Positions 2 to 11,144 of a stretch of DNA of 16,167 nucleotides are shown here, in pieces (within the stretch, counting starts at the first letter, position 1; each line of letters begins with the position of its first letter). Where the stretch lies: assembly GCA_016234025.1 (NCBI GenBank), contig JACQLL010000056.1, forward strand, positions 1 through 16,167, written 5' to 3'. The notes under the pieces are model-generated. The model worked only from the letters and a program-made list of their open reading frames with translations, was not told where the DNA came from and searched no databases. This DNA is from Candidatus Pacearchaeota archaeon. GTDB lineage: Archaea > Nanobdellota > Nanobdellia > Pacearchaeales > GW2011-AR1. The translations under genes were made by a program, and so were the position numbers.

Positions 2-3000
2 AATGCCAGCGTTTTTGATACAAATGAGGATCAGATAGACGCATTCATCTACGGAGTTAATTTCTCGTCGACCGGAAAGTTTTACAAACACGGCCTGCTT
101 TATCGGCAAATCGACGCTTCGCCTGGAACTAATTTGAGTTACAACTGGACTTCGCCTGTGACTGTTCCTGATAAGTCGGTTGTTTATCTTTTACATTTGG
201 ATAATAATTCCCGTTATGACGAAAATGACTCTTTTGTTTATGACTTCAGCGATTACAACAGGAACAACGGAACAGCGTCGGGAAACGCATTTCCAAACAT
301 GAGCGGAGGCAAGTTCGGTGGGGGTTGGGAGTTTGATGGCAACGGAGATTACATAACTATTACCGACGGAGGAACAGAGCTTGATTTCGACGACGCACTA
401 GAGTATACATGGACGATGTGGGTGAGACTTAATAGCCTGGACAAAGACCATTGGCTTGTCAGCAAACAAAACGGAGGCGGATTATCTCAATTAGGATATA
501 TAATTTTAGTTGAAAATAACAACCAGGTTTCCATTGCCAAGCCAGACGGAACTGTTCCTACAGACGGAACAAATAATCAATTATCAAGTTCTTTAACGTT
601 ACAAAAAGGAAGATTTTATCATTTAGCCGTTGTCTTTGATAAAGAAACATCAACTATTTATATTAATGGAGTTTCTAATGCGACAGGCTCTGGTGCTTTT
701 GACGACGATACTTCTGATAATGTTTTGTTAGGAAATAGTGGCTCTAATAGAGCCATTAATGGAACTTTAGACGATGTTGCTTTCTGGAATCGAACATTGA
801 GTGCAACAGAAATTAATGATTTGTATAGATTAAATCTTGATAAATATTTCTGGAAAGTTAATGTTACGGATTTCTCGGGGAACAACAACGAATCAGAGGC
901 AAGGCAAATTGAGATACAAGAGTTAACTCCTCCAGGCGTTACGATAAACTTCCCAAAGAATAAAACATATGGTTATACGAGTTTGCATCTTAACTTTAAT
1001 GTTACTCTTAACGAAAATGGAAGCGTTCAGTATAGCCTGACAGGCGGAGCGAATAATATAACAATGTTCTCTTCCGAAAACAGAAATTTCAATCATACAA
1101 ATGGTTCAATCGCAGATGGGGGTTACAAGTTTAATGCGTATGCTAATGACACGGCAGGAAATAATAATTACACGACGAACATGGCGTTTAGTTTTAACAG
1201 CTCTGAATTATCTGCATGCGGTAATTTGGACGAGGCGAACAAGAGATATGTTTTGATTCAGAATGTTACGACAACGGGAACATGTTTCACAATCTCCGCA
1301 GATAACATCACTCTTGAAGGCAGAGGGTATATCGTGACAGGAGACGGGGGAGCTTCTGACAATGGAGTTAGCGTGACTTCAAAGTTGAATATAACAATAA
1401 ATAATCTTAATGTTACGAATTTTGCTCATGGAATTTACTCTTCGGGAATCAATAACTCTTTGATTTCCGGGAACTACTTGTATTCGAATGTCTTTAATGG
1501 AATATACATGACGGCAAGTTATAGAAATAAAATCGAAGATAACATAGCAAGCTCTAATTCTGATAGTGGTTTGAGTTTAGACAGTACTAATTCTTATAAT
1601 ACAGTCCGCAATAATTTTATGAATCTTAATTCTCTTTACGGATTTTCGATTGTAGCGAGTTCTAACAACGGATTTACCGATGATAGAATAAATGGCTCGC
1701 TGGGAGATGCGATACTGCTTAGCGGCTTGGTTAGTGACAACAACTTTACAAATACAACCATATCTAACACGCATAAATCTTTTTATGATTTGAAATTTGA
1801 AGACGAGCAGATAAACGGGACGCTGCTGATAGACATCCCTCACATAGGAAATTATACTTTTACAGGTCTTGGCGGGACTTTGATTGTCAGGGACAGCGAG
1901 TTTGGAGAAGTAAGTTATTTGAAGATAGTTAATGGGAGCGGAACTAACTTAACTAACGACATAAGAATAGGAAACAACTCTGTTACGGTGTTATCAAATT
2001 CTAATCTGGGATTAAATAGAAGTGCAAATGTTTCTTTGTTTGGTTCGCCTGGAGCGGGGTTTGTCGTTCCTAAAATACAGAGAGATGGCTCGGCTTGTGC
2101 TTCTTCTATTTGCGCCAACTATACGGCATTAAACGCCACGACGGTAATATTTAATGTTACACACTGGACTAATTACAGCATCGGAGAGGGTAACACTGCT
2201 CCTGTGAGTCCGACTCCATTGCTTAATTCTACCGACGGGACGAACAGAACTGCGCAGAACCTTCATTGTTCTGATACATTATCTGATGCGGATGCACATA
2301 GAATGAATGTCACGGTTATTTGGTATAACGGTTCATTACAACATTTGAAGGTTAACTTTAATAATAGTTACGTCAACGGAACTTATTTCACGGCAACTCT
2401 TAACTCCGGAAATACCACTAAAACACAAAACTGGACTTGTGGATTAAGAACATTTGACGGAGGTTATTACAGCGCTTGGTCGAATAGTTCTCTTCTTACT
2501 ATTCTGAATACTCCGCCGAGCGTCAGTCTTCTTACTCCTGCCAATGGGAACATTACAATCAACAGGACTCCTACTTTCACATGGAGTGGAAGTGACGACG
2601 ACAGCGACGCTCTAACTTATGAACTTAATCTCACTTGTCTTGGAGGATGCACCACACAAGACTCGAGATACGTTCAGTCAATTGGCGGAACCTCGCACAC
2701 TATATCGGGAGACCTGCAATATCTTTCTGATAATTCTTATTACTATAACTGGTCTGCCAGAGCCAGCGATGGAACGGACTTCGGAGATTGGGCTGTTTCC
2801 AGGAACATAAGCATACAAGCGCTCGTCGATGTAATTTTGCAGAGAAGCTCGGTAGATTTCGGAGGAATAGGAATACTCGGCACAAACGACACTACCGACG
2901 ACTCTCCTTTGCCTTTCTTAATTGAAAACTCCGGAAATTCTTTCGTGAATATTTCTATAAATTCAAGTAACTTGTGGAACTCCGCAGGCAACCCAAGCAG

Positions 3001-3241
3001 ATATTATCAGTTCAAGGTCGATAATAATACAGCAGAGAATTACTCCTTTAGTCAGTTGCTTTCAGTTACGACGTTCACTAACATGCCTCCTTTAACGCCT
3101 TCTCAACTTGCAATTGCTTTGCTGAATTATACCGACGCTACCGACAGCGCAGAGATAGATATTAATGTCAGCGTTCCTCCAAGTGAGGGGTCAGGAGTTA
3201 AAAGTTCGACGGTGTATTTCACCGCAAAATTGGCAGAATGA
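2..3241 (+). CDS. Giant mosaic cell-surface protein, 3' part only (5' end outside window)
   Basis: The frame is open from base 2 and enters from outside the window, so this is the C-terminal ~1079 residues of a longer protein; the in-frame TTG at 134 is not a convincing start. Modules by position: a LamG/concanavalin-like jelly roll at about 170-840 (WTMWVRL, FYHLAVVFD, LDDVAFWNRTLSATEI); an Ig-like module at about 900-1200; a right-handed beta-helix of NosD/pectate-lyase type at about 1210-1800, with repeated turns such as GIYSSGINNSLISGN; Fn3/Ig-like modules at about 2190-2820 introduced by APVSP and TPPSV; and a last beta module at about 2830-3241. N-x-S/T sequons are very common, fitting an exported, probably N-glycosylated protein. 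No C-terminal membrane segment is visible, so anchoring must come from the missing N-terminus or from partners. The stop overlaps the next start by 4 bp. Likely role: adhesion or glycan binding at the envelope; the function is inferred from domains only. Confidence 0.85.
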   Translation, partial: NASVFDTNEDQIDAFIYGVNFSSTGKFYKHGLLYRQIDASPGTNLSYNWTSPVTVPDKSVVYLLHLDNNSRYDENDSFVYDFSDYNRNNGTASGNAFPNMSGGKFGGGWEFDGNGDYITITDGGTELDFDDALEYTWTMWVRLNSLDKDHWLVSKQNGGGLSQLGYIILVENNNQVSIAKPDGTVPTDGTNNQLSSSLTLQKGRFYHLAVVFDKETSTIYINGVSNATGSGAFDDDTSDNVLLGNSGSNRAINGTLDDVAFWNRTLSATEINDLYRLNLDKYFWKVNVTDFSGNNNESEARQIEIQELTPPGVTINFPKNKTYGYTSLHLNFNVTLNENGSVQYSLTGGANNITMFSSENRNFNHTNGSIADGGYKFNAYANDTAGNNNYTTNMAFSFNSSELSACGNLDEANKRYVLIQNVTTTGTCFTISADNITLEGRGYIVTGDGGASDNGVSVTSKLNITINNLNVTNFAHGIYSSGINNSLISGNYLYSNVFNGIYMTASYRNKIEDNIASSNSDSGLSLDSTNSYNTVRNNFMNLNSLYGFSIVASSNNGFTDDRINGSLGDAILLSGLVSDNNFTNTTISNTHKSFYDLKFEDEQINGTLLIDIPHIGNYTFTGLGGTLIVRDSEFGEVSYLKIVNGSGTNLTNDIRIGNNSVTVLSNSNLGLNRSANVSLFGSPGAGFVVPKIQRDGSACASSICANYTALNATTVIFNVTHWTNYSIGEGNTAPVSPTPLLNSTDGTNRTAQNLHCSDTLSDADAHRMNVTVIWYNGSLQHLKVNFNNSYVNGTYFTATLNSGNTTKTQNWTCGLRTFDGGYYSAWSNSSLLTILNTPPSVSLLTPANGNITINRTPTFTWSGSDDDSDALTYELNLTCLGGCTTQDSRYVQSIGGTSHTISGDLQYLSDNSYYYNWSARASDGTDFGDWAVSRNISIQALVDVILQRSSVDFGGIGILGTNDTTDDSPLPFLIENSGNSFVNISINSSNLWNSAGNPSRYYQFKVDNNTAENYSFSQLLSVTTFTNMPPLTPSQLAIALLNYTDATDSAEIDINVSVPPSEGSGVKSSTVYFTAKLAE

Positions 3242-3756
3242 AAATGGTAAAAAATAAACATGTGGTTGCAATAGATTTCGTAATCATAGCAGCGACGCTA
3301 GTCTTTGCCTTGGTTCTCGTCGGCTATGCAAGACCTTTAATAATTGCTCCGGTTGATGAGCTGATTACGACTAATAGTTCTGTTTTGTTTGAATTCGAAA
3401 AGGGAGATTTTATACTTCTCGATAATAATCTTGATTTCAGTTCGCCCGAAAAGATTTATGCAGAGGATAATTTAATTATCAATTTAAAGCCGGGCGTTTA
3501 TTATTGGAGGGTTCAGGGAGCTCTAACGAGCGAGATAAGACAGCTTACAATTCAGTCGGAAGTTGAGTTGAAATTAAAAGAGTTTGCCGACGGGAAATTT
3601 AAGATAGTGAACGCAGGCAATACTAATCTGAACGTCGATGTTTATGAGAACGGCGAGCTGAATCAGACCCTGACTTTGGGAGTCGAAGAAGAGAAGGAAG
3701 TTTCCGGAAAGAAGTTCATTGCAAGAGAAGATGTTTCTGGAGGAGAGAATGAGTAA
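3238..3756 (+). CDS. Membrane-anchored beta-sandwich surface protein, 172 aa
   Basis: The ATG at 3238 overlaps the stop of the giant surface gene by 4 bp (ATGA), implying coupled translation. A basic N-terminus (MKMVKNK) leads into one hydrophobic segment at about residues 10-29, probably an uncleaved anchor, leaving about 140 residues outside. The first outer part (about 36-95) reads as an Fn3/Ig-like sandwich: it opens with APVDELITTNSSVLFEF and ends in the typical LKPGVYYWRVQG strand. A second short beta module (about 107-160) contains FKIVNAGNTNLNVDVYENG. An internal ATG at 3244 is an alternative start. I do not recognise a named family. By position it resembles the 137-aa protein at 6956-7369, and it may link the giant protein to the membrane; that role is inference. 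Confidence 0.8.
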   Translation: MKMVKNKHVVAIDFVIIAATLVFALVLVGYARPLIIAPVDELITTNSSVLFEFEKGDFILLDNNLDFSSPEKIYAEDNLIINLKPGVYYWRVQGALTSEIRQLTIQSEVELKLKEFADGKFKIVNAGNTNLNVDVYENGELNQTLTLGVEEEKEVSGKKFIAREDVSGGENE

Positions 3757-4948
3757 GCTTTTTGTGTCTATAGTTTTATTTGTATTTTTGATTTCAGGAG
3801 TTTTTGCTCTGGGAGTTACTCCCGGAAGAACTACTTTTGATTATGAGCCGGGAACGCAAAGAAAAGTTGATTTTTCCGTCGTTAATTCTGAAAAAGATGA
3901 TATTAACATTGTGGTTTTGGTTCAGGGAGAGCTTAATGAATCGATATCGCTTTCCGAAGTTTCTTTTAGCATGAGCAGTTCTGAACAGAGCAGGAATCTT
4001 CGGTATATATTAGACATGCCGCAGAATCTTGCGCCAGGAGCTCATTCTTCGGAGATTGTTATTTTGCAGTTGCCCGGCAGGTCTTCTGTCAGCGACGCTT
4101 TTGTCGGAGGAACTGTTGCAGTGGTGACAGAGGTTGTTGTTTTCGTTCCTTATCCCGGGAAGTATGCAGAAGCAGGGCTTAATATTATTGGTCCTGAAAA
4201 CGGCAAGGTTACTTTTGTTATTCCTGTGACGAGCAGAGGTGATTTGGATTTGGTGAGAGTCGGCGGGACAATAGACATATTTAGTTCTTTGAATGAGAAA
4301 ATCGCGACGGTTTCTACAAATGAGATTTCTATTCTTAGCAAGGAAAGAAAAGAGATAGTTGCTGAATGGGATGCGTCAAGCATACAACCGGGTCCTTACA
4401 GGGCTGTCGCGACGGTGATTTATGACGAACAGGTTTTGAAAGTTGAGAAAGAATTTAATGTCGGAGAGAGGAGATTAGGTTTAGAAGGGATAGAAGTTAA
4501 TGATTTTTCTCTCGGAGAAATAGCGAAATTTGAAATTTTGGTAGAGAACAAATGGAGTCAGGAGATAAAAGGAGCTTATGCAGAGATGCAGGTCTTTAAT
4601 TCCGACGGAGAAATCATGGCCGAGTTCAAGTCGCCTACTCAAGACATTCCTGCTTTAAGCAAGGCATTGATGATATCATTTTGGGATACTGAAGGAGTCA
4701 GAAAGGGAACTTATGATTCCACTCTATTCTTAAGATACGGAGCCAGTTCCGAACAACAATCTTTGAAATTAGAAATCTCTGAAAATGACATAAATGTAGT
4801 CGGAGTTGGTTATGTCATTTCGGAAAGCAGCGGAGGAAAAAGTTCAGGAGGTCTTACTACTATCTTAATCGCAGGGATAATAATTTTGGTGCTTGTCAAT
4901 TTAAGTTGGTTCTTGTTCTTTAGAAGGAAATTAAAACATAGACAATGA
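3749..4948 (+). CDS. Type I membrane protein with Ig-like ectodomain and basic tail (paralogue of 5862-6959)
   Basis: I place the start at the ATG at 3749 (399 aa). It lies 5 nt after a GGAGG Shine-Dalgarno (3739-3743) and is followed at once by a clear signal peptide (MSKLFVSIVLFVFLISGVFA, then LGVTPG); a TTG 30 nt upstream would put charged residues before it. The start overlaps the previous gene by 8 bp. The ectodomain looks like three beta-sandwich units of NEW3/COG1470 style: about 21-140, 141-240 and 241-345. The first ends with VVVFVPYPGKY (129-139). A Gly/Ser-rich spacer leads to a membrane helix at about 369-391 and the tail FRRKLKHRQ. The layout (signal peptide, two or more sandwiches, C-terminal helix, Arg/Lys tail) recalls the DUF916/DUF3324 proteins of Gram-positive WxL loci, but I cannot claim homology. 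Probably an envelope assembly or anchoring partner of the neighbouring beta proteins. Confidence 0.85.
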   Translation: MSKLFVSIVLFVFLISGVFALGVTPGRTTFDYEPGTQRKVDFSVVNSEKDDINIVVLVQGELNESISLSEVSFSMSSSEQSRNLRYILDMPQNLAPGAHSSEIVILQLPGRSSVSDAFVGGTVAVVTEVVVFVPYPGKYAEAGLNIIGPENGKVTFVIPVTSRGDLDLVRVGGTIDIFSSLNEKIATVSTNEISILSKERKEIVAEWDASSIQPGPYRAVATVIYDEQVLKVEKEFNVGERRLGLEGIEVNDFSLGEIAKFEILVENKWSQEIKGAYAEMQVFNSDGEIMAEFKSPTQDIPALSKALMISFWDTEGVRKGTYDSTLFLRYGASSEQQSLKLEISENDINVVGVGYVISESSGGKSSGGLTTILIAGIIILVLVNLSWFLFFRRKLKHRQ

Positions 4949-4955
4949 CGATAAA

Positions 4956-4967
4956 ACTTAAATAAGG
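4956..4967 (+). promoter_or_regulatory. Putative internal archaeal promoter (TATA box)
   Basis: The 54-bp gap after the gene ending at 4948 is the only real break in the surface-gene run. It holds CTTAAATAAG, a TATA-like box about 40 nt before the ATG at 5003. Initiation about 25 nt downstream would leave a leader of about 15 nt carrying the purine-rich AGAGAGG (4993-4999) ribosome-binding site. This would let the second set of surface genes be transcribed separately. Based on consensus and spacing only. Confidence 0.45.
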
Positions 4968-5002
4968 ATATGATTTGTTATATTTAATAAAGAGAGAGGA
5001 AG

Positions 5003-5203
5003 ATGGATACAAATCAAAAAGTTATTTTGGCAGTGTTGATACTCGCTATTGTCTTTTCTGTGGTCTCTATGTTTATCAGTTTGAGTTTGAGTGATTTGAG
5101 TTCTGATTTTAGACATGTTGTTTCCGGCAAGGTTAGCGATAACGGAGGAGCAGGTGTTTCTTTAGTTGTTGAGGGTGCATCTTCTGCGGGAGGAGGAGGA
5201 TGA
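5003..5203 (+). CDS. Tiny membrane protein with Gly-rich end, 66 aa
   Basis: A short N-terminus (MDTNQK) is followed by one hydrophobic helix at about 6-29 and about 37 outer residues. The outer part carries VVSGKVSDNGGAGVSLVVEG and ends in GGGG. The stretch from SGK to VVEG aligns by eye with ITGYATGEANLTVES in the next protein and ITGKGVVGILALIIEG in the 661-aa protein, so the three share an exposed motif just after the first membrane segment. Shine-Dalgarno AGAGAGG lies 3 nt before the ATG. The stop overlaps the next start (ATGA), and the four Gly codons themselves form the GGAGGAGGAGG ribosome-binding site for it. A minor filament subunit or accessory peptide of the beta protein is plausible but unproven; I recognise no family. 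Confidence 0.7.
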   Translation: MDTNQKVILAVLILAIVFSVVSMFISLSLSDLSSDFRHVVSGKVSDNGGAGVSLVVEGASSAGGGG

Positions 5204-5865
5204 AAGAAGACGGATTGCTTTTATTAGTGGCGGTTATAGCATTGATAGTTTCTGTATCTTCTGCAGGAATAACTTATCTTTCTTTCAGCAATTTAGTTTC
5301 TCAAATAACGGGTTATGCGACGGGAGAAGCGAACCTGACGGTTGAGTCAACTGTTTCGATAAATTTCTCTAATTCGTCGGTAAATTGGGGTTCCGGCAGA
5401 GTTAATACCGGACAAACGAAAGCTTACCTTGATACACAATCAGGGACGGTTACATTTGGAAATTGGACTGCTGTTAGCGGAGGTCTTGTTGTAGAAAATA
5501 CAGGGAATGTTAATTTAACACTGAATTTAACCGGTGGAAAGACGGCTGCGCAGTTTCTTTCCGGAACAAACCCTGCTTACAAATGGAATGTCAGCAATTT
5601 TGAAGTAGGGAGTTGTTTAAATGCTACTGGAGGTCCTCCACTTTACACACAATTTGGGAAATTCTCCGATGTAAACACGAGCACAGAACTAATTTGCAAT
5701 ACTTTTAGATTCGAGGCAGGTAATGACACGATACTAATTGCTTTTAACTTGACTGTTCCAGAAAATTCGCTCAAAGGTGCTCTTGGAGATATTATTACAG
5801 CGACCGCGTTCCAAGCCAGATTTTCACAAAAGTATAAAAATCTTTTTTTCCAAGTTAGAAGATGA
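5200..5865 (+). CDS. Membrane-anchored beta-domain protein, possible filament subunit, 221 aa
   Basis: Starts by a 4-bp overlap with the upstream 66-aa gene, with GGAGG repeats directly before it. A hydrophobic helix (about 5-27) could be a signal peptide (VSSAG near 20-23) or an anchor. The motif ITGYATGEANLTVES (36-50) follows, then a beta-rich domain with many N-x-S/T sequons, including VNWGSGRV (61-68) and VVENTGNVNLTLNLTG (97-112). C139 and C166 could form a disulfide. The end of the domain (IAFNLTVPENSLKGALGDIITATAFQA) matches in style the end of the giant protein (INVSVPPSEGSGVKSSTVYFTAKLAE). The order helix, short strand, then ENTGN-type sandwich recalls TasA/camelysin and the archaeal bundling pilin AbpA, whose subunits join by donor-strand exchange; this comparison is from memory. 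The last residues (KYKNLFFQVRR) look unlike the rest and may be an extension created by the overlap with the next gene. Confidence 0.8.
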   Translation: MKEDGLLLLVAVIALIVSVSSAGITYLSFSNLVSQITGYATGEANLTVESTVSINFSNSSVNWGSGRVNTGQTKAYLDTQSGTVTFGNWTAVSGGLVVENTGNVNLTLNLTGGKTAAQFLSGTNPAYKWNVSNFEVGSCLNATGGPPLYTQFGKFSDVNTSTELICNTFRFEAGNDTILIAFNLTVPENSLKGALGDIITATAFQARFSQKYKNLFFQVRR

Positions 5866-6959
5866 AAAAGGTTTTTATTATGGTGATATTTTTAATTTGC
5901 CTTGTGCAATTATCTAGCGCTAATTTAGGTTTGTCTCCATCCAAGAAATATTTTAATTATGTTCCGGGCGAGGAAATAATAGTCAAATATCATATTTTTG
6001 AAGACAATCCTGAAAGAAAACTTGACATTTCCGTCGAGGGAGACTTGAAAGATTATGTCCATCTTAGTAAGAATGAATTAACAGGAGGAGGGGATGTAAC
6101 GGTTACTATTGGTCTTCCTGAAAGTGTCGGGGAAATGCCCGGAGATAATGATATTAGTATCGTTGTCAAGCAGCAGCCATTTGAGAGCCAGTTTATAGGA
6201 ACTGCGATAGAGCTTTCTTCTACGATAACTATTTTCGTCCCTTATCCTGGGAAGTATATCCAGGCAGTTTTGCAGGTTCCGAACGGAAATGTTGATGATG
6301 AAATTCCTATCGAACTGAAGTTAACAAACCGAGGAAAGAGCGAAGCTGGCGTCAGCTCCAGAGTCGATATAAAGACAGAAGGAGAAAATAAAGGAAGCGT
6401 TAATTTTTCTCCTTTTATCCTTGCTGTTAACGAGGAGAAGACCTTGCAGGGGGTTTTAAATACTCAAGGCTATAGACCAGGAGATTATTTAGCAGATGCA
6501 TTCGTTAATTATGGAGATGGTGTTTCAAATGTTAATCAGACATTCAGGATTGGCTCTCTTTTTGTCAACGTAACGGATTTTAGCGACGAGCTTTCTCAAG
6601 GAGGCATCCAGAAATTTTTGATTGACGTCCAGAGTTTATGGAACTCTGATATAGATGATGTTTACGCAGATGTTAATATTTCTAACGAGGTTGAGAGCTT
6701 TGTTTTTAGAACGCCTTCTATCCCGCTTAATGCATGGAGTGAAGGAACGTTAGAGGGATTCTTGGACACCAGCGACATGAGCGGAGAGTATGAAACTGAA
6801 ATAACTTTGAATTATTTGGGAAGCAAGAGCTTAACTTCCGGAATTTTGTCGATTAAGAAATCCTCGATGATTATTGTGATAATTGTAATAGGGGTCATTT
6901 TAGCAGTCATACTACTGCTTGCATTAATTAGGAGAAAGAGAAAGCGGAGGAAAAGATGA
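5862..6959 (+). CDS. Type I membrane protein with Ig-like ectodomain and basic tail (paralogue of 3749-4948)
   Basis: Joined to the upstream gene by a 4-bp ATGA overlap. It begins with a signal peptide (MKKVFIMVIFLICLVQLSSA, then NLGLSP), parallel to LGVTPG in the first copy. Beta-sandwich units run at about 21-135, 136-235 and 236-330; the first ends in ITIFVPYPGKY (122-132), sharing FVPYPGKY with the other copy at the same place. Residues 334-356 form the membrane helix, followed by RRKRKRRKR at the inner face. The two proteins are clearly paralogues with the same topology but are well diverged, so the duplication is old or both sets arrived separately. The codons of the basic tail contain the GGAGG used to start the next gene. 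Its likely job is to hold or assemble the beta protein encoded just upstream; this is inference from gene order. Confidence 0.85.
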   Translation: MKKVFIMVIFLICLVQLSSANLGLSPSKKYFNYVPGEEIIVKYHIFEDNPERKLDISVEGDLKDYVHLSKNELTGGGDVTVTIGLPESVGEMPGDNDISIVVKQQPFESQFIGTAIELSSTITIFVPYPGKYIQAVLQVPNGNVDDEIPIELKLTNRGKSEAGVSSRVDIKTEGENKGSVNFSPFILAVNEEKTLQGVLNTQGYRPGDYLADAFVNYGDGVSNVNQTFRIGSLFVNVTDFSDELSQGGIQKFLIDVQSLWNSDIDDVYADVNISNEVESFVFRTPSIPLNAWSEGTLEGFLDTSDMSGEYETEITLNYLGSKSLTSGILSIKKSSMIIVIIVIGVILAVILLLALIRRKRKRRKR

Positions 6960-7369
6960 AGAAGTTTGCTTACTCGCTTCTTTTAGTTTCTTTTATTGTC
7001 TTGATAGCTTCTTTGCTGATTTTTTTTTGGAGAGGAACAATTCTTCAGAGCGATACATTTTACACTTCTGCTGATGTCAGTGATAAAAACATAGGACTTG
7101 ATGTTAATAGCAGTGCGCTGACTTTCGGTAAAATAAACAGAGGAGGAAGTTCTTCACGGAACATACTTTTAGAAAACGGCTATCCATTTCCGATCGTTGT
7201 TGAGTTGGAGGCGGATGGGGAGATAACGAAAATTTTGAATTATGAGGATACGATAGAAGTTGACAGAGGAGACAGCGTGGAAATAGCTCTAAGTGTTTAT
7301 GCAGATGAAAACACTGAACAGAAGTTTTACGAGGGCAATGTTAAATTAAATATTAAGCCGCTTATCTAG
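6956..7369 (+). CDS. Short membrane-anchored beta-domain protein, 137 aa
   Basis: Last gene of the surface run. It overlaps the upstream stop by 4 bp, with Shine-Dalgarno GGAGG at 6946-6950, 5 nt before the ATG. MKK plus a hydrophobic helix (about 6-24, ending LLIFFWR) gives an N-terminal anchor, leaving about 110 outer residues. These hold a compact beta module: LTFGKINRGGSSSRNILLENGYPFPIVVEL, then VDRGDSVEIALSVYA and YEGNVKLNIKPLI. The F-G-x-I-x-x-G ... L-x-N pattern is typical of ASH/HYDIN-like and other Ig-like modules, and resembles the start of the last module of the giant protein (VDFGGIGILGTND ... LIENSGNS). Its place in the second gene set corresponds to that of the 172-aa protein in the first. 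No specific function can be assigned. Confidence 0.8.
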   Translation: MKKFAYSLLLVSFIVLIASLLIFFWRGTILQSDTFYTSADVSDKNIGLDVNSSALTFGKINRGGSSSRNILLENGYPFPIVVELEADGEITKILNYEDTIEVDRGDSVEIALSVYADENTEQKFYEGNVKLNIKPLI

Positions 7370-7476
7370 AATTTTAATTTACTCCGCCGACGTTAATTCC
7401 ACCCGCTCTGAAAATAGTCGCCAACTATCCAACAATCCGCCCCCACCCTCCCACCCTAAAATTTGCTCCGCTAACC

Positions 7477-7591
7477 TTGCGGCTGCGGGATTTCGAACTC
7501 TCTATAAAATAAATTCCGCTGGCTTTAATCTACTCCGCCGGCGCTTCTGCTCTAAATCTAGCCGCAGATTTTGCGGCTGCGGGATTTCGAA
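7477..7591. repeat. Pair of exact 21-bp direct repeats
   Basis: The same 21 bases occur at 7477-7497 and 7571-7591, beginning TTGCGGCTGCGGG and ending ATTTCGAA, with start points 94 bp apart. A related pair lies outside and between them: TACTCCGCCGACG at 7380-7392 and TACTCCGCCGGCG at 7531-7543 (one mismatch). The combination suggests an imperfectly repeated two-part unit. Confidence 0.85.
7560..7578. other. 7-bp hairpin in GC-rich island
   Basis: AGCCGCA (7560-7566) and TGCGGCT (7572-7578) are perfect inverted repeats around the 5-nt loop GATTT. The right arm is part of the second 21-bp repeat. At the first copy the matching left arm is absent, so only the second repeat copy can form this hairpin. 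Confidence 0.7.
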
Positions 7592-7602
7592 GCCGCGCCC
7601 GC

Positions 7603-7688
7603 TTTGGCGACGGCGCGGCGACGGAGTTTTGGCGACGGCGCGGTGGCTTTGGAGGGACTTCTCTCCGCTCTTTTCAGTGACGGCGCGG
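7603..7688. repeat. Short tandem direct repeats with GACGGCGCGG core
   Basis: TTTGGCGACGGCGCGG is exact at 7603-7618 and 7628-7643 (period 25), and TGACGGCGCGG recurs at 7678-7688. They form the most GC-rich part of the island. Read from the sequence directly; function unknown. Confidence 0.8.
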
Positions 7689-7900
7689 CTCTAAATGAAC
7701 CTAGTCCCTGCCTTTTCCTTCGGCGTTGCGGCGTTGAACGAAACGCGTCCCCGCCTCCTCGCGACCACGCGCGCAATGAATCCCAAAGATACTCGTCGCG
7801 TAATCGCTCGCCAACCTTACCGCCTCCCGAGACGGCGACGCGACGACATCAGTCCCGCCCACCTGCCCCATGAGACGCGGCGGCGCGTTAGTTCACAAAT

Positions 7901-7911
7901 ATTTAAATACT
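7901..7911 (+). promoter_or_regulatory. Archaeal TATA box for the gene at 7931 (leaderless)
   Basis: ATTTAAATACT is a good archaeal TATA box centred near 7906, about 25 nt before the ATG at 7931. Transcription would start at or very near the start codon. No Shine-Dalgarno is present (TCTCGGAAAAAT precedes the ATG), which agrees with leaderless translation. Confidence 0.65.
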
Positions 7912-7930
7912 ACTTATCTCTCGGAAAAAT

Positions 7931-8614
7931 ATGACGAATGAAACGATAAAAGTCTCGATAAGAAAAAGCGTAGAAGGAAGAGCATTCGGGCCGGTGAGAG
8001 GTGATGTAGCTTTGAAAGAGTGCAGCGACGCTGGTTACGAGGCGCAGTTCATGCCGACCTTGATAGACACGAGAATTTATTCTAAGAAAGGTTCGGCTTT
8101 CTGGAATTTTTTGTGGAGAACTCCAAGCATCAAAGCGACAGGAAAAACAAAACAAGATAACCCAGTCGTAATATATGCTCACGTCCCAAATTATTTCTCA
8201 AAACACGAAAACATAACAGAGGCAATAGAAGTAGGTCTTGTAAAAGGAGCTGGAAAAATTCCAAGAGAAGAATTTCAGAGATTGCTTGATTTAGAAGACA
8301 AAGAAAGAGTTTTTGTCGTCGATTACGACGAACTAAAACGCTCAACTTCAGACTTAATTCCAGTCAAGAAAGCGCTGGCACACCCGCAAACGATTCCGTT
8401 TCTCGGCGGAAAAGACAGAGCAGAATTGTATCTACCAAAACACAAAGAAAACTACGGAGACCAAATCGGAATCTGGCATTCCGATGATTTGTGTGATGAG
8501 CCGTTAGCGAGATTGCTTTATGTTGGCGACGATTACTGCGACGGCTTGATTGCCAACTACCACTTGAACTACAGTGGGCGATTCTTCGGGGTGCCGAAGC
8601 TTAAGGAATTTTGA
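7931..8614 (+). CDS. Hypothetical soluble protein, 227 aa
   Basis: I do not recognise this protein. It has no signal peptide or membrane segment, so it is probably cytoplasmic, unlike the genes on both sides. The N-terminal half alternates charged and hydrophobic residues in a strand-like way (ETIKVSIRKSVEGRAFGPVRGD); residues 78-84 (PVVIYAH) and 126-131 (RVFVVD) look like core strands. The conserved-looking C-terminal part, from about 172 (ENYGDQIGIWHSDDLCDEPLA) to GRFFGVPK, contains H183, C188, C203 and H211, which could bind a metal or be part of an active site. It has its own leaderless-type promoter, and the next gene also has its own, so it is probably transcribed alone. Codon use is AT-rich like the genome and unlike the GC island just upstream. 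Confidence 0.75.
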   Translation: MTNETIKVSIRKSVEGRAFGPVRGDVALKECSDAGYEAQFMPTLIDTRIYSKKGSAFWNFLWRTPSIKATGKTKQDNPVVIYAHVPNYFSKHENITEAIEVGLVKGAGKIPREEFQRLLDLEDKERVFVVDYDELKRSTSDLIPVKKALAHPQTIPFLGGKDRAELYLPKHKENYGDQIGIWHSDDLCDEPLARLLYVGDDYCDGLIANYHLNYSGRFFGVPKLKEF

Positions 8615-8670: not shown

Positions 8671-10656
8671 ATGAAAAAGATAGTGATGTTAATCTTGGTT
8701 TTCTCTATTATTTTTAGTATAATTAATATTCTTTTTTTGGGGCTTGTGCCTGTCAAGGATTTTCAGTATATAACGGGAAAGGGAGTGGTTGGGATTTTGG
8801 CGTTGATTATCGAGGGAGATACATTGAATATCACTATTCTCCATCCGACGAACACGACTTATAATTTTTCTATTGGGGCTACCTATGCCATTAATCTAAA
8901 TGTTTCTTCAAATTATAATACGAGCAATTGGTGGTACACTCTGCGCGATGAGAGGCATAACCTCGTTGTCAATAACAGCATCTTATTTACCCCCAATACG
9001 ACGATTTACGCGGTCAGATGGGACAACAGGCTTCTTGTTTATGCAAATGACTCTTCGGGAGTTTCTGATAATAAGAATGTCACATTTTTTATTAATGTCC
9101 CTAATTCTGCTCCTGTTTTGGGAAGTGTCGACAATGAGATTTATGTCTGTGAGGGTTCTGCCCTTTCTTACTTCTTCAACGCCACTGACGTCGACGAAGA
9201 TAATCTTACTTTTGATATTATTCCGAAAAATCCGTTTTTTGTAAACACAAATCCAATTAATCAAACCATTAACTCTCAAAACACCACAGCTAAAAATGAA
9301 ATATTTTCAGGAGTGATAGGAAAGAACGACGTCAGGAATTATAGCGAAAATTTGTCGGTTAGTGATAGTTCGCTCGCCGACAGCAAGTCGATAAACATAA
9401 CAGCAATTGAGATAAACAATGCACCTGGCGTCGAGAACATAGGGGTCAAGACGATTTATACGCAGGGAGACAATCAAACTCTTTTTGAAGAGTGGGATGT
9501 CAGTGATGTTGAGAATGGCAATCAGAGCTCTGGTAATTTCACTTTCAATACTACATTCTCTTCGGGAAGTTGGATTTTTAATATAAGCCAGTCAGGAGTG
9601 ATAAACTTCACCGCAAATTCTACTTACGTCGGAGTTTATGACATAGCTGTTTGTGTTGTTGACCTTGGAATAAAGAATATACATCAAAACATAAGTGTTT
9701 GTGGACAGAGCGGAACAAATCGGTCAAGTTGTGATTCGTTCGAGCTTACTATCACGGGAGATAACAGAGCACCGACGATAACTTCTTATTCTCCTGTTAA
9801 CTTGGTGTTTGACGCGAGCAGCACCGAGAGTTTGCTCTTTAATGTTTCTGAAAGAGATCCGGATGGAAGCACGCCTGACACTTATTGGTATGTTGATGAG
9901 GTTCGTAAAGAGATTGATTCCGGAGCGACGTATGATACTTTTAGTTATAGTTTTGGTTGTGGTGTTTCGGGCGTTCATCGGATAAGAGTCGACACGACCG
10001 ACGGCTCTCTTAATGACAGCGTGCAATGGAACGCTACAATTTCCAAAGTTTCTTGTCCTGTGCAAAGTGCCGGAGCAGGCGGCGGAGGAGGCGGAGGCGG
10101 AGGCGGTGGAGCATCTTCGTCGGCTTGCGGGGTTAAGTGGGCTTGCCATGCATGGCAATTATGTCAGAACACAGAAAGGTCTTTTGAGATAGGCGTGATT
10201 TCGGGGGATCATTATAGAGAAGTAAGCGAAGAATGTTCTCTAAACGACTGGGACGATGATGTTTGTGGTTTTCAGATAAGAAACTGCGTAGATGTCAATG
10301 AATGTAATCGGGAATTTAACAAGCCGGGAGAAATTCAGGCGTGCTATTTCACCATTGCGCCGAGCTGTTTTGACGGAATTGAAAATTGTCACGATGGGGA
10401 ATGTGAATTTTTGGTAGATTGCGGCGGACCTTGTCTTGCCTGTTCTACTTGTTCTGACGGAGTTCAGAATCAGGGGGAAGAGAATGTAGATTGCGGCGGA
10501 CCTTGCCCCAACAGATGCCCTGTTGAAAAACCTTCAAGGGCGAGGCTTATACATTACCTGATTGTTGTTACTTTATTACTTGTTATATTATTAATTGTAA
10601 AACTTTACAGAGTTATTATGCTGAAAAAGACAAGAACCAAAAAGGTTAAAAAGTAA
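8671..10656 (+). CDS. Large surface protein: cadherin/Ig-like modules, poly-Gly linker, Cys-rich repeats, membrane anchors at both ends
   Basis: 661 aa. A first hydrophobic helix (about 4-24) is followed by ITGKGVVGILALIIEGD (34-50), the motif shared with the 66- and 221-aa proteins. Beta modules follow: about 50-145; a cadherin-like one at about 148-250 (APVLGSVDNEIYVCEG, ATDVDEDNLTFD); about 250-360; and 366-460 (APTITSYSPVN, ERDPDGSTPDTYWYVD). A poly-Gly linker (468-480) leads to a Cys-rich part: a thrombospondin-1-like module at about 486-558 (CGVKWACHAWQLCQN ... CVDVNECNREFNKPGEIQAC), then two DCGGPC repeats, 566-588 and 594-612 (CSDGVQNQGEENVDCGGPC). A C-terminal helix (about 627-645) and a Lys/Arg-rich tail follow. 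N-glycosylation sequons are frequent. If the first helix is cleaved, this is a type I protein; the signal peptidase gene follows 17 nt downstream. Probable role: a stalk or adhesin at the cell surface. Confidence 0.85.
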   Translation: MKKIVMLILVFSIIFSIINILFLGLVPVKDFQYITGKGVVGILALIIEGDTLNITILHPTNTTYNFSIGATYAINLNVSSNYNTSNWWYTLRDERHNLVVNNSILFTPNTTIYAVRWDNRLLVYANDSSGVSDNKNVTFFINVPNSAPVLGSVDNEIYVCEGSALSYFFNATDVDEDNLTFDIIPKNPFFVNTNPINQTINSQNTTAKNEIFSGVIGKNDVRNYSENLSVSDSSLADSKSINITAIEINNAPGVENIGVKTIYTQGDNQTLFEEWDVSDVENGNQSSGNFTFNTTFSSGSWIFNISQSGVINFTANSTYVGVYDIAVCVVDLGIKNIHQNISVCGQSGTNRSSCDSFELTITGDNRAPTITSYSPVNLVFDASSTESLLFNVSERDPDGSTPDTYWYVDEVRKEIDSGATYDTFSYSFGCGVSGVHRIRVDTTDGSLNDSVQWNATISKVSCPVQSAGAGGGGGGGGGGGASSSACGVKWACHAWQLCQNTERSFEIGVISGDHYREVSEECSLNDWDDDVCGFQIRNCVDVNECNREFNKPGEIQACYFTIAPSCFDGIENCHDGECEFLVDCGGPCLACSTCSDGVQNQGEENVDCGGPCPNRCPVEKPSRARLIHYLIVVTLLLVILLIVKLYRVIMLKKTRTKKVKK

Positions 10657-10673: not shown

Positions 10674-11144
10674 ATGAAAACGAGTAATTTTATCATGAAG
10701 GCAATTTATGCAGTGCTAATCTTTTTAGCCGGGTTTCTAAGTGCGCAGGCAGGAGGTCTGGCTTCTCCGAGCATAACTGGTTTTTCTGTGGACGCGCCTT
10801 CTGACTTTTTTCAGTTAGATAATGTTGTCGTTTATCAAGATAGAATTGTTATCAAGATAGATAATCCAATTGTGAGCAATTACGAGGACAGCGGAAGCAT
10901 GGTTCCTTTTCTAAACGCGAACGCAAATGGCATTGGTGTCTTGCCGAGTTCTGGAGAAGAGATTAATGTCGGAGATGTGATAACTTATGATAATGGGAAA
11001 GAGTTGGTTGTTCACAGGGTTATTGAAAAGGGCGAGGATAGCGAAGGTATTTATTTTATAACGAAGGGAGATAATTCTCCTGTGGTCGACGGTAAAGTGA
11101 GATTTTCCCAAGTCAAATCTGTGTTGGTTGGAGTGCTTTATTAG
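10674..11144 (+). CDS. Signal peptidase I, archaeal/ER type (family S26B)
   Basis: 156 aa. Removes signal peptides from exported proteins at the outer face of the membrane. One N-terminal helix (about 9-26) anchors it. The catalytic serine is S75 in SGSMVP (73-78), and the general base is H114 in VVHRVIE; the His in place of the bacterial Lys marks the S26B (SipW/Sec11) type. FITKGDNSPVVD (128-139) supplies the conserved Asp residues D133 and D139. About 45 residues separate the helix from the catalytic Ser (SITGFSVDAP ... VVVYQDRIVIKIDNPIV), more than in ordinary short enzymes of this type, and this stretch also carries the ITGF motif seen in nearby surface proteins. It lies 17 nt behind the 661-aa surface gene, with AGGA upstream of the ATG, so the two are probably co-transcribed and it may serve these substrates specifically. 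Its 3' end overlaps the opposing helicase gene by 32 bp. Confidence 0.85.
   Translation: MKTSNFIMKAIYAVLIFLAGFLSAQAGGLASPSITGFSVDAPSDFFQLDNVVVYQDRIVIKIDNPIVSNYEDSGSMVPFLNANANGIGVLPSSGEEINVGDVITYDNGKELVVHRVIEKGEDSEGIYFITKGDNSPVVDGKVRFSQVKSVLVGVLY

Follow-up and report, generated by a model that had tools for sequence, protein, structure and literature searches.

The closest described counterparts of the locus reported here are the WxL/WxLIP gene clusters of Bacillota. In the accessible parts of the paper describing them, the commonest arrangement is one WxLIP gene with two WxL genes (98 of 179 clusters), and a hairpin strand of the first WxLIP domain is predicted to fill a gap in the WxL protein, while the transmembrane (TM) helix of WxLIP is argued to enter the host cell, the bacterial membrane being out of reach (PMC10599100). 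Here we describe a related group of surface-protein genes, referred to as the kit, in a window of 16,167 nucleotides that constitutes one contig (C14; JACQLL010000056.1) of the 663-kb draft genome of a Candidatus Pacearchaeota archaeon. The two type I membrane proteins of the kit, A3 and B2, are on profile evidence remote homologues of bacterial WxLIP, and they recur next to module-bearing partners across related archaea. We read them, with a probability of roughly one half, as membrane-anchored clamps that display an adhesin and a small subunit at the cell surface by means of a strand lent to the module.

The plus strand carries A1, A2 and A3, a 54-bp gap, and B0, B1, B2 and B3, followed by an uncharacterized gene, C2 and one for a signal peptidase (Table 1). 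Set A thus consists of a large LamG/beta-helix protein (A1), a short protein (A2) and a type I protein (A3), and set B of the 66-residue B0, the small B1, the type I protein B2 and the short B3. The original prediction for this locus, made from its sequence, was largely right, and the pattern is more general than was claimed, although its interpretation is supported only in part. The gene positions and the break between the sets (4949-5002) were as it stated, and hydropathy agrees with its type I assignments, A3 and B2 each having an N-terminal hydrophobic segment, a C-terminal TM segment and a tail ending in KLKHRQ and RKRKRRKR, respectively. The proposal that the two sets are built alike holds for the type I pair and for the module pair, but not for the short third members: A2 and B3 are both short and each has an N-terminal hydrophobic segment by hydropathy, yet the hhalign probability between them is 30.4 over 21 columns, and a third homologous pair was rejected. 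Furthermore, B0 is an additional member of set B that the prediction did not include.

Table 1. Features of the kit and its neighbourhood in the window; gene starts were taken from a simple open reading frame (ORF) caller.
Feature	Positions	Strand	Evidence
A1, large adhesin-like protein, 1079 aa, 5' end cut by contig	2..3241	+	Pfam matches
A1 C-terminal module, homologous to B1	2789..3238	+	hhalign probability 98.4-98.8; B1 profile match
A2, short protein, N-terminal TM segment	3238..3756	+	ORF, hydropathy
A3, type I protein (putative clamp), WxLIP-related, 399 aa	3749..4948	+	homology, model
A3 domain 1 (residues 18-138), DUF916/PapD-N-like	3800..4162	+	hhalign probability 83.8 vs PGBD, 2.2 vs HBD
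A3 domain 2 (139-240), DUF3324-like	4163..4468	+	hhalign probability 94.4 vs HBD, 9.7 vs PGBD
A3 domain 3 (241-346), homologous to domain 2	4469..4786	+	hhalign probability 98.9, domain 2 vs domain 3
A3 C-terminal TM helix with basic end	4847..4942	+	model helix 367-398; hydropathy
B0, 66-aa protein, TM helix and segment GVSLVVEG (alternating hydrophobics)	5003..5203	+	sequence
B1, small module protein	5200..5865	+	AlphaFold2 model of 206-aa copy P0121
Promoter-like TATAAAA (5833-5839) and run of seven T (5843-5849)	5833..5849	+	sequence; enrichment in relatives
B2, type I protein (putative clamp) of set B, 365 aa	5862..6959	+	homology to A3, tree
B3, N-terminally anchored single domain	6956..7369	+	hhalign vs domain 1 of type I proteins
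C2, large protein, N- and C-terminal TM segments; recurrent neighbour	8671..10656	+	hydropathy, neighbourhood, post-TM segment
Signal peptidase I, archaeal/SipW-like	10674..11144	+	TIGR02228 and NF046067 matches below cut-off

The kinship of the type I proteins to WxLIP rests on a collinear profile match across both WxLIP domains (probability 98.2), with crossed domain pairs at 10 or less and reversed and shuffled controls blank. Indeed, the A3 model matches the solved WxLIP fold, and 9i1y has the top Z among the VIA rows covering domains 1 and 2. Pfam WxLIP_HBD is matched by 18 of 44 type I rows (E up to 1), alongside other weak matches to CARDB, BsuPI and others, and PF11797 is precomputed on 15 of 120 listed homologues. 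The A3 of the window misses the curated PF11797 cut-off (score 13.0 versus 28.9), and among 194 genomes three pass the curated cut-off for PF11797 and none that for PF06030. The motif NQIDKxxxYFDLK of the first WxLIP domain is also missing, neither NQIDK nor FDLK occurring in any of the 125 full-length type I proteins, 122 of which have a C-terminal TM helix by hydropathy. On the bacterial side, the A5 set was taken from 24 of 55 stretches and the WxL set from 34 of the 45 WxL-like ORFs in them. As a control, WxLIP_PGBD (PF06030) was seen to pass its cut-off in Thermotoga maritima too, outside Bacillota.

The two sets are linked by two homologies. A3 and B2 are paralogues over their length (phmmer E 1.3e-27, 26% identity), and A3-type and B2-type proteins align as sets with an hhalign probability of 100 (E 1.7e-70). 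Their partners are also related: B1 aligns with the C-terminal 150 residues of A1-type proteins (hhalign probability 98.4, E 9.7e-15), and a search of the genome with a B1 profile recovers the A1 module at 2894-3229 (E 4.0e-9). Ahead of this C-terminal module, A1 has a LamG-like domain, a right-handed beta-helix and an immunoglobulin (Ig)-like stretch (Pfam PF13385, 1.2e-25; PF13229, 2e-11; PF19077, 4.5e-6); its N-terminus is unseen because the gene runs off the contig start. Module-bearing ORFs in relatives span 163-4027 aa, several being cut by stretch ends.

The model of B1, computed on P0121 (mean predicted local distance difference test score, pLDDT, 91.5), comprises a helix (residues 4-35; TM or signal), a segment (36-53) and a beta-rich domain (54-205), and resembles donor-strand pilins as a weak match. 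At least two cysteines are found in all 54 B1 rows, two of them in invariant columns, and in three of 26 A1-type modules. A 15-residue C-terminal tail of the window's B1 (5818-5862) is absent from P0121, which is otherwise identical and lies on another contig, and from 23 other aligned relatives; the tail is so taken as a local change or assembly error in the window copy, one that also gives rise to the B1/B2 ATGA overlap seen there. No Pfam family occurred in more than two of 24 B1 rows, two B1 profiles found no PDB sequence at E <= 10, and tblastn of P0001 in plasmids gave a single match (E 9). No WxL chain stands among the B1 rows listed, which carries no exclusion.

The short members connect to these proteins in different ways. 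B3 looks like a free-standing copy of the first domain of the type I proteins, which it matches with an hhalign probability of 93.6. A segment following the TM helix is common to the B0, C2 and B1 families; profile comparison with B1 scored 82.9 for A2 and 71.3 for C2, but these values are confounded by the TM helix, and the post-TM pattern, which C2 relatives bear in a form like that of B1, was therefore relied on. A2 recurs between A1 and A3 in many, though not all, relatives.

Recurrence with partners, the check proposed with the original prediction, was borne out. Relatives of A3 were found in 38 of the 109 genomes of the order, and a 44-row type I profile matched 191 of 279 genomes of a phylum-wide sample (E <= 0.001; many E < 1e-50); every listed match belongs to the class of the window, although the weak ones may represent different Ig proteins. 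Named proteins of the nearest relatives are mostly from Candidatus Pacearchaeota, the others being labelled archaeon, Parvarchaeota, Woesearchaeota, Nanoarchaeota and Patescibacteria. One homologue with the Patescibacteria label in NCBI (P0060) appears to belong to a genome placed in this archaeal family, probably a mislabelled bin.

Neighbourhoods were compared for type I proteins of at least 280 aa with scores of at least 60. At the level of the order, 40 stretches were drawn from the stronger A3 matches, most of those weaker than about 1e-10 being left out; in these and the window (41 stretches), 27 of 32 A-type and 27 of 29 B-type genes (54 of 61) are preceded by a module gene at a distance of at most 3 kb. 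The exceptions are one gene near a stretch end and four outright for the A type, and one of each for the B type. A second sample, of 20 class stretches not picked by neighbours (L159-L178), gave 11 of 14 and 8 of 11 (19 of 25), with one A-type and three B-type genes near an end and two A-type genes outright without a module. Taken over both samples, six of 86 type I genes lack a module and lie near a stretch end. Finally, in 20 stretches picked for two type I genes close together (L139-L158), the module is upstream of 18 of 20 A-type (one near an end, one without) and all 22 B-type genes; pairing counts from these stretches are not independent because of that choice. A type I gene of the other type lies within 8 kb of 21 of 32 A-type and 18 of 29 B-type genes in the order, and of 5 of 14 and 5 of 11 in L159-L178, where the earlier removal of genomes with visible pairs biases pairing downwards, the sample being about every third strongly matching genome left after L139-L158. 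Sets A and B so travel together often, but not always, the usual order being A1, (A2), A3, (B0), B1, B2, B3, (C2).

Some variants of this order were observed. An A2-like part stands at the end of a 2294-aa frame upstream of A3 in L034 (12115-18999, minus strand), like an A1-A2 fusion or a lost stop. In L033, L034, L037, L039 and L042, a further gene block of similar order lies downstream of B3, with sizes of about 335-405, 335-350, 96-116, 113-122 and often 323-337 aa. In L144, which belongs to a genome from a different family, the first B-type set is followed about 8 kb further on by another, with module proteins of 761 and 199 aa, a type I gene and B3.

A tree of 125 type I proteins (320-480 aa, score over 100; quick method, midpoint root) splits in two with a Shimodaira-Hasegawa-like approximate likelihood ratio test (SH-aLRT) value of 98. 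One side holds 60 rows, of which 55 have A context and 5 are unclear; the other holds 65, with 50 of B context, 9 unclear and 6 of A context. Context changes 15 times on this tree, where two is the least possible and the mean after shuffling is 49.8, a value as low being reached in none of 200 shuffles. Three of the six A-context exceptions fall within a four-row group with A-like neighbours. Since the type I proteins divide in this manner, the A/B pair appears, under the midpoint root, to be older than the sampled class.

These findings suggest how the kit may operate. Each set would combine a module protein of predicted beta-sandwich fold (B1, or the C-terminal part of A1) with a WxLIP-related membrane protein (A3 or B2). 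The latter likely contributes an edge strand of its domain 1 to the module, completing it and holding it in place. In A3 we propose strand 124-133 (4118-4147; assigned by DSSP) as this donor. Because the C-terminal tail is basic, the clamp is predicted to be anchored in the membrane of the archaeon itself and to expose three Ig-like domains on the outside. In set A it would hold the large LamG/beta-helix adhesin and in set B the small subunit B1, whose free N-terminal segment, with residues 36-53 (5305-5358) as its proposed donor strand, could pass to a neighbouring module. B0 and C2 would be anchors that only donate strands; trimming of the subunits could fall to the SipW-like peptidase. Of this reading, the data establish the gene sets, the two homologies that link them, their recurrence and the profile kinship with WxLIP; anchors and folds are predictions from sequence or models, and strand donation, the binding partners, adhesion at the surface and processing are inferences.

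The same parts may instead build a donor-strand filament, in which B1 is the shaft pilin and A1 sits at the tip as an adhesin with a pilin-like module that accepts a strand but donates none; B0 or C2, in the membrane, would provide the initial strand, and A3 and B2 would act as transient membrane-tethered chaperones rather than permanent anchors. FimH is such a tip adhesin, its pilin-like module being a strand acceptor only, and TapA has been proposed to supply the first strand for TasA. The original prediction likewise spoke of a filament or stalk, which is still an inference. We regard this alternative as possible but rank display by a clamp above handover to a growing fibre. Equally tentative is its widest form, a strand-complementation pilus found throughout this class of DPANN archaea, in which B1 would form the shaft, giant A1 proteins the tip adhesins, and B0 and C2 donor-only bases in the membrane, with a pair of dedicated, membrane-tethered clamps of WxLIP/PapD type to feed and hold them. 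If this is correct, chaperone-assisted strand exchange would connect bacterial WxL clusters with TasA-type fibres and with archaeal organelles of attachment.

A simpler account takes A3 and B2 as ordinary co-transcribed multi-Ig surface proteins, of S-layer or envelope stalks, that resemble WxLIP only in having a common Ig-like fold. The A3 model is indeed matched by many unrelated chains, and the weak CARDB, BsuPI and other matches point the same way. Such an account is nevertheless unlikely, given the domain-specific, collinear profile matches with their blank controls, the top rank of WxLIP 9i1y among rows spanning domains 1 and 2, and the module gene that accompanies most sampled type I genes. 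A recent local duplication in this genome, with no special function of the pair, would explain why the sets adjoin and have two homologous parts in common, but is highly improbable in view of a tree that follows A/B context.

The original prediction had almost all junctions as ATGA overlaps and took this to imply fixed stoichiometry; in the window, a 4-bp ATGA overlap occurs at four of the six junctions of the run, A2/A3 overlapping by 8 bp (ATGAGTAA, 3749-3756) and A3/B0 being separated. Over all 81 stretches, 4-bp overlaps were counted at 12 of 30 A1-A3, 7 of 23 A2-A3, 12 of 23 B0-B1 and 14 of 49 B2-B3 junctions. The B1-B2 junction has such an overlap in one of 49 cases, that of the window itself, and a gap of more than 20 bp in 38, as do all 30 junctions from A3 to B0 or B1. 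TATA-like hexamers 20-34 nt before the start precede 27 of 48 B2-type genes (shuffled 8.8 ± 2.4), 8 of 15 B1 genes that follow A3 (2.2) and 12 of 16 C2 genes (3.0); they are less clear before B0 (7 of 13; 3.1 ± 1.5) and near shuffle level at coupled junctions (0/21, 9/48, 1/23, 4/30 and 2/18). Runs of at least five T occur in 23 of 40 B1-B2 spacers (shuffled 14.7 ± 2.6). The window has TATAAAA centred 26 nt ahead of the B2 ATG, and the nearest hexamer before B0, TTAAAT (4958-4963), is 42 nt off, outside the counted range. Likely transcription units are A1-A2-A3, B0-B1, B2-B3 and C2. Fixed stoichiometry was rejected on two grounds: many B2-type genes have promoter-like sites ahead of them, and the B1/B2 overlap of the window is exceptional.

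Beyond B3, positions 7370-7930 form a long stretch without a convincing gene, and the block 7001-8000 has the highest GC fraction (0.485) among the 1-kb blocks of the window. The gene at 7931-8614 divides the surface locus in two; it encodes a 227-aa protein without TM segments that matches neither Pfam (at E < 0.05) nor NCBIfam. C2 is probably an accessory component. The signal peptidase, a possible processing enzyme for the kit, matches TIGR02228 (3.5e-12; 46.5 bits, cut-off 51.85) and NF046067 (1.7e-7; 31 bits, cut-off 190). The minus strand carries genes that, from their sequences, we take to be UvrD-like helicase, aIF2-gamma-like and S6e-like.

How DPANN archaea attach to their hosts is largely open, and the kit, common in the window's class, gives named parts for an attachment device. 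The strand-lending clamp, if real, would be a way to display adhesins common to archaea and bacteria. The view that the system was undescribed is half true: its type I proteins are kin to described bacterial ones, yet the accessible parts of the WxL papers name no archaeal members (PMC9772566, PMC10599100), and the word 'archaea' is absent from the main text of PMC10599100. The listings of literature on WxL, WxLIP, DUF916 and DUF3324, mostly outside subscription papers, showed no archaeal WxLIP-related kit; nothing on it was found among the listed matches on Pacearchaeota or DPANN surface proteins, and no description of TLP-1 was found.

Among fibre systems, B1 has no sequence match to PDB chains that would tie it to TasA/TapA fibres, archaeal bundling pili (AbpA) or CanA cannulae; those systems polymerise, whereas the kit offers a shared post-TM segment seen in sequence only. 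We know of no WxLIP-like clamps in any of the three. Compared with chaperone-usher pili (FimC/PapD, FimG/FimH), the kit clamps have a predicted membrane anchor and three domains, and an usher is not expected in single-membrane cells.

The differences from the WxL clusters lie on both sides of the pair. The archaeal clamps have a third Ig domain beyond the two bacterial ones and lack NQIDK, and the kit has two type I paralogues, one per module class. Their module partners lack the paired W-x-L motif, two such motifs being present in one of 26 A1-type modules, in none of 54 B1 proteins and in all 34 bacterial WxL proteins, which were picked by these motifs; profile comparison of the kit modules with the 34 small WxL proteins gave probabilities of 0.9-1.9. 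No peptidoglycan is expected in these archaea. The basic, cytoplasmic-type tail of the archaeal proteins favors anchoring of WxLIP, too, in the cell's own membrane. The type I proteins nevertheless agree with WxLIP in domain order and sequence profile. Furthermore, as far as the accessible parts of the two papers go, in both kinds of cluster the tandem Ig-like type I protein adjoins two partners, one large and modular with a module at its C-terminus and one small that bears a module of the same kind, and in both some of the large partners have beta-helix domains (PMC9772566, PMC10599100). By analogy, the strand-filling logic of WxL, with a different module, fits the archaeal kit.

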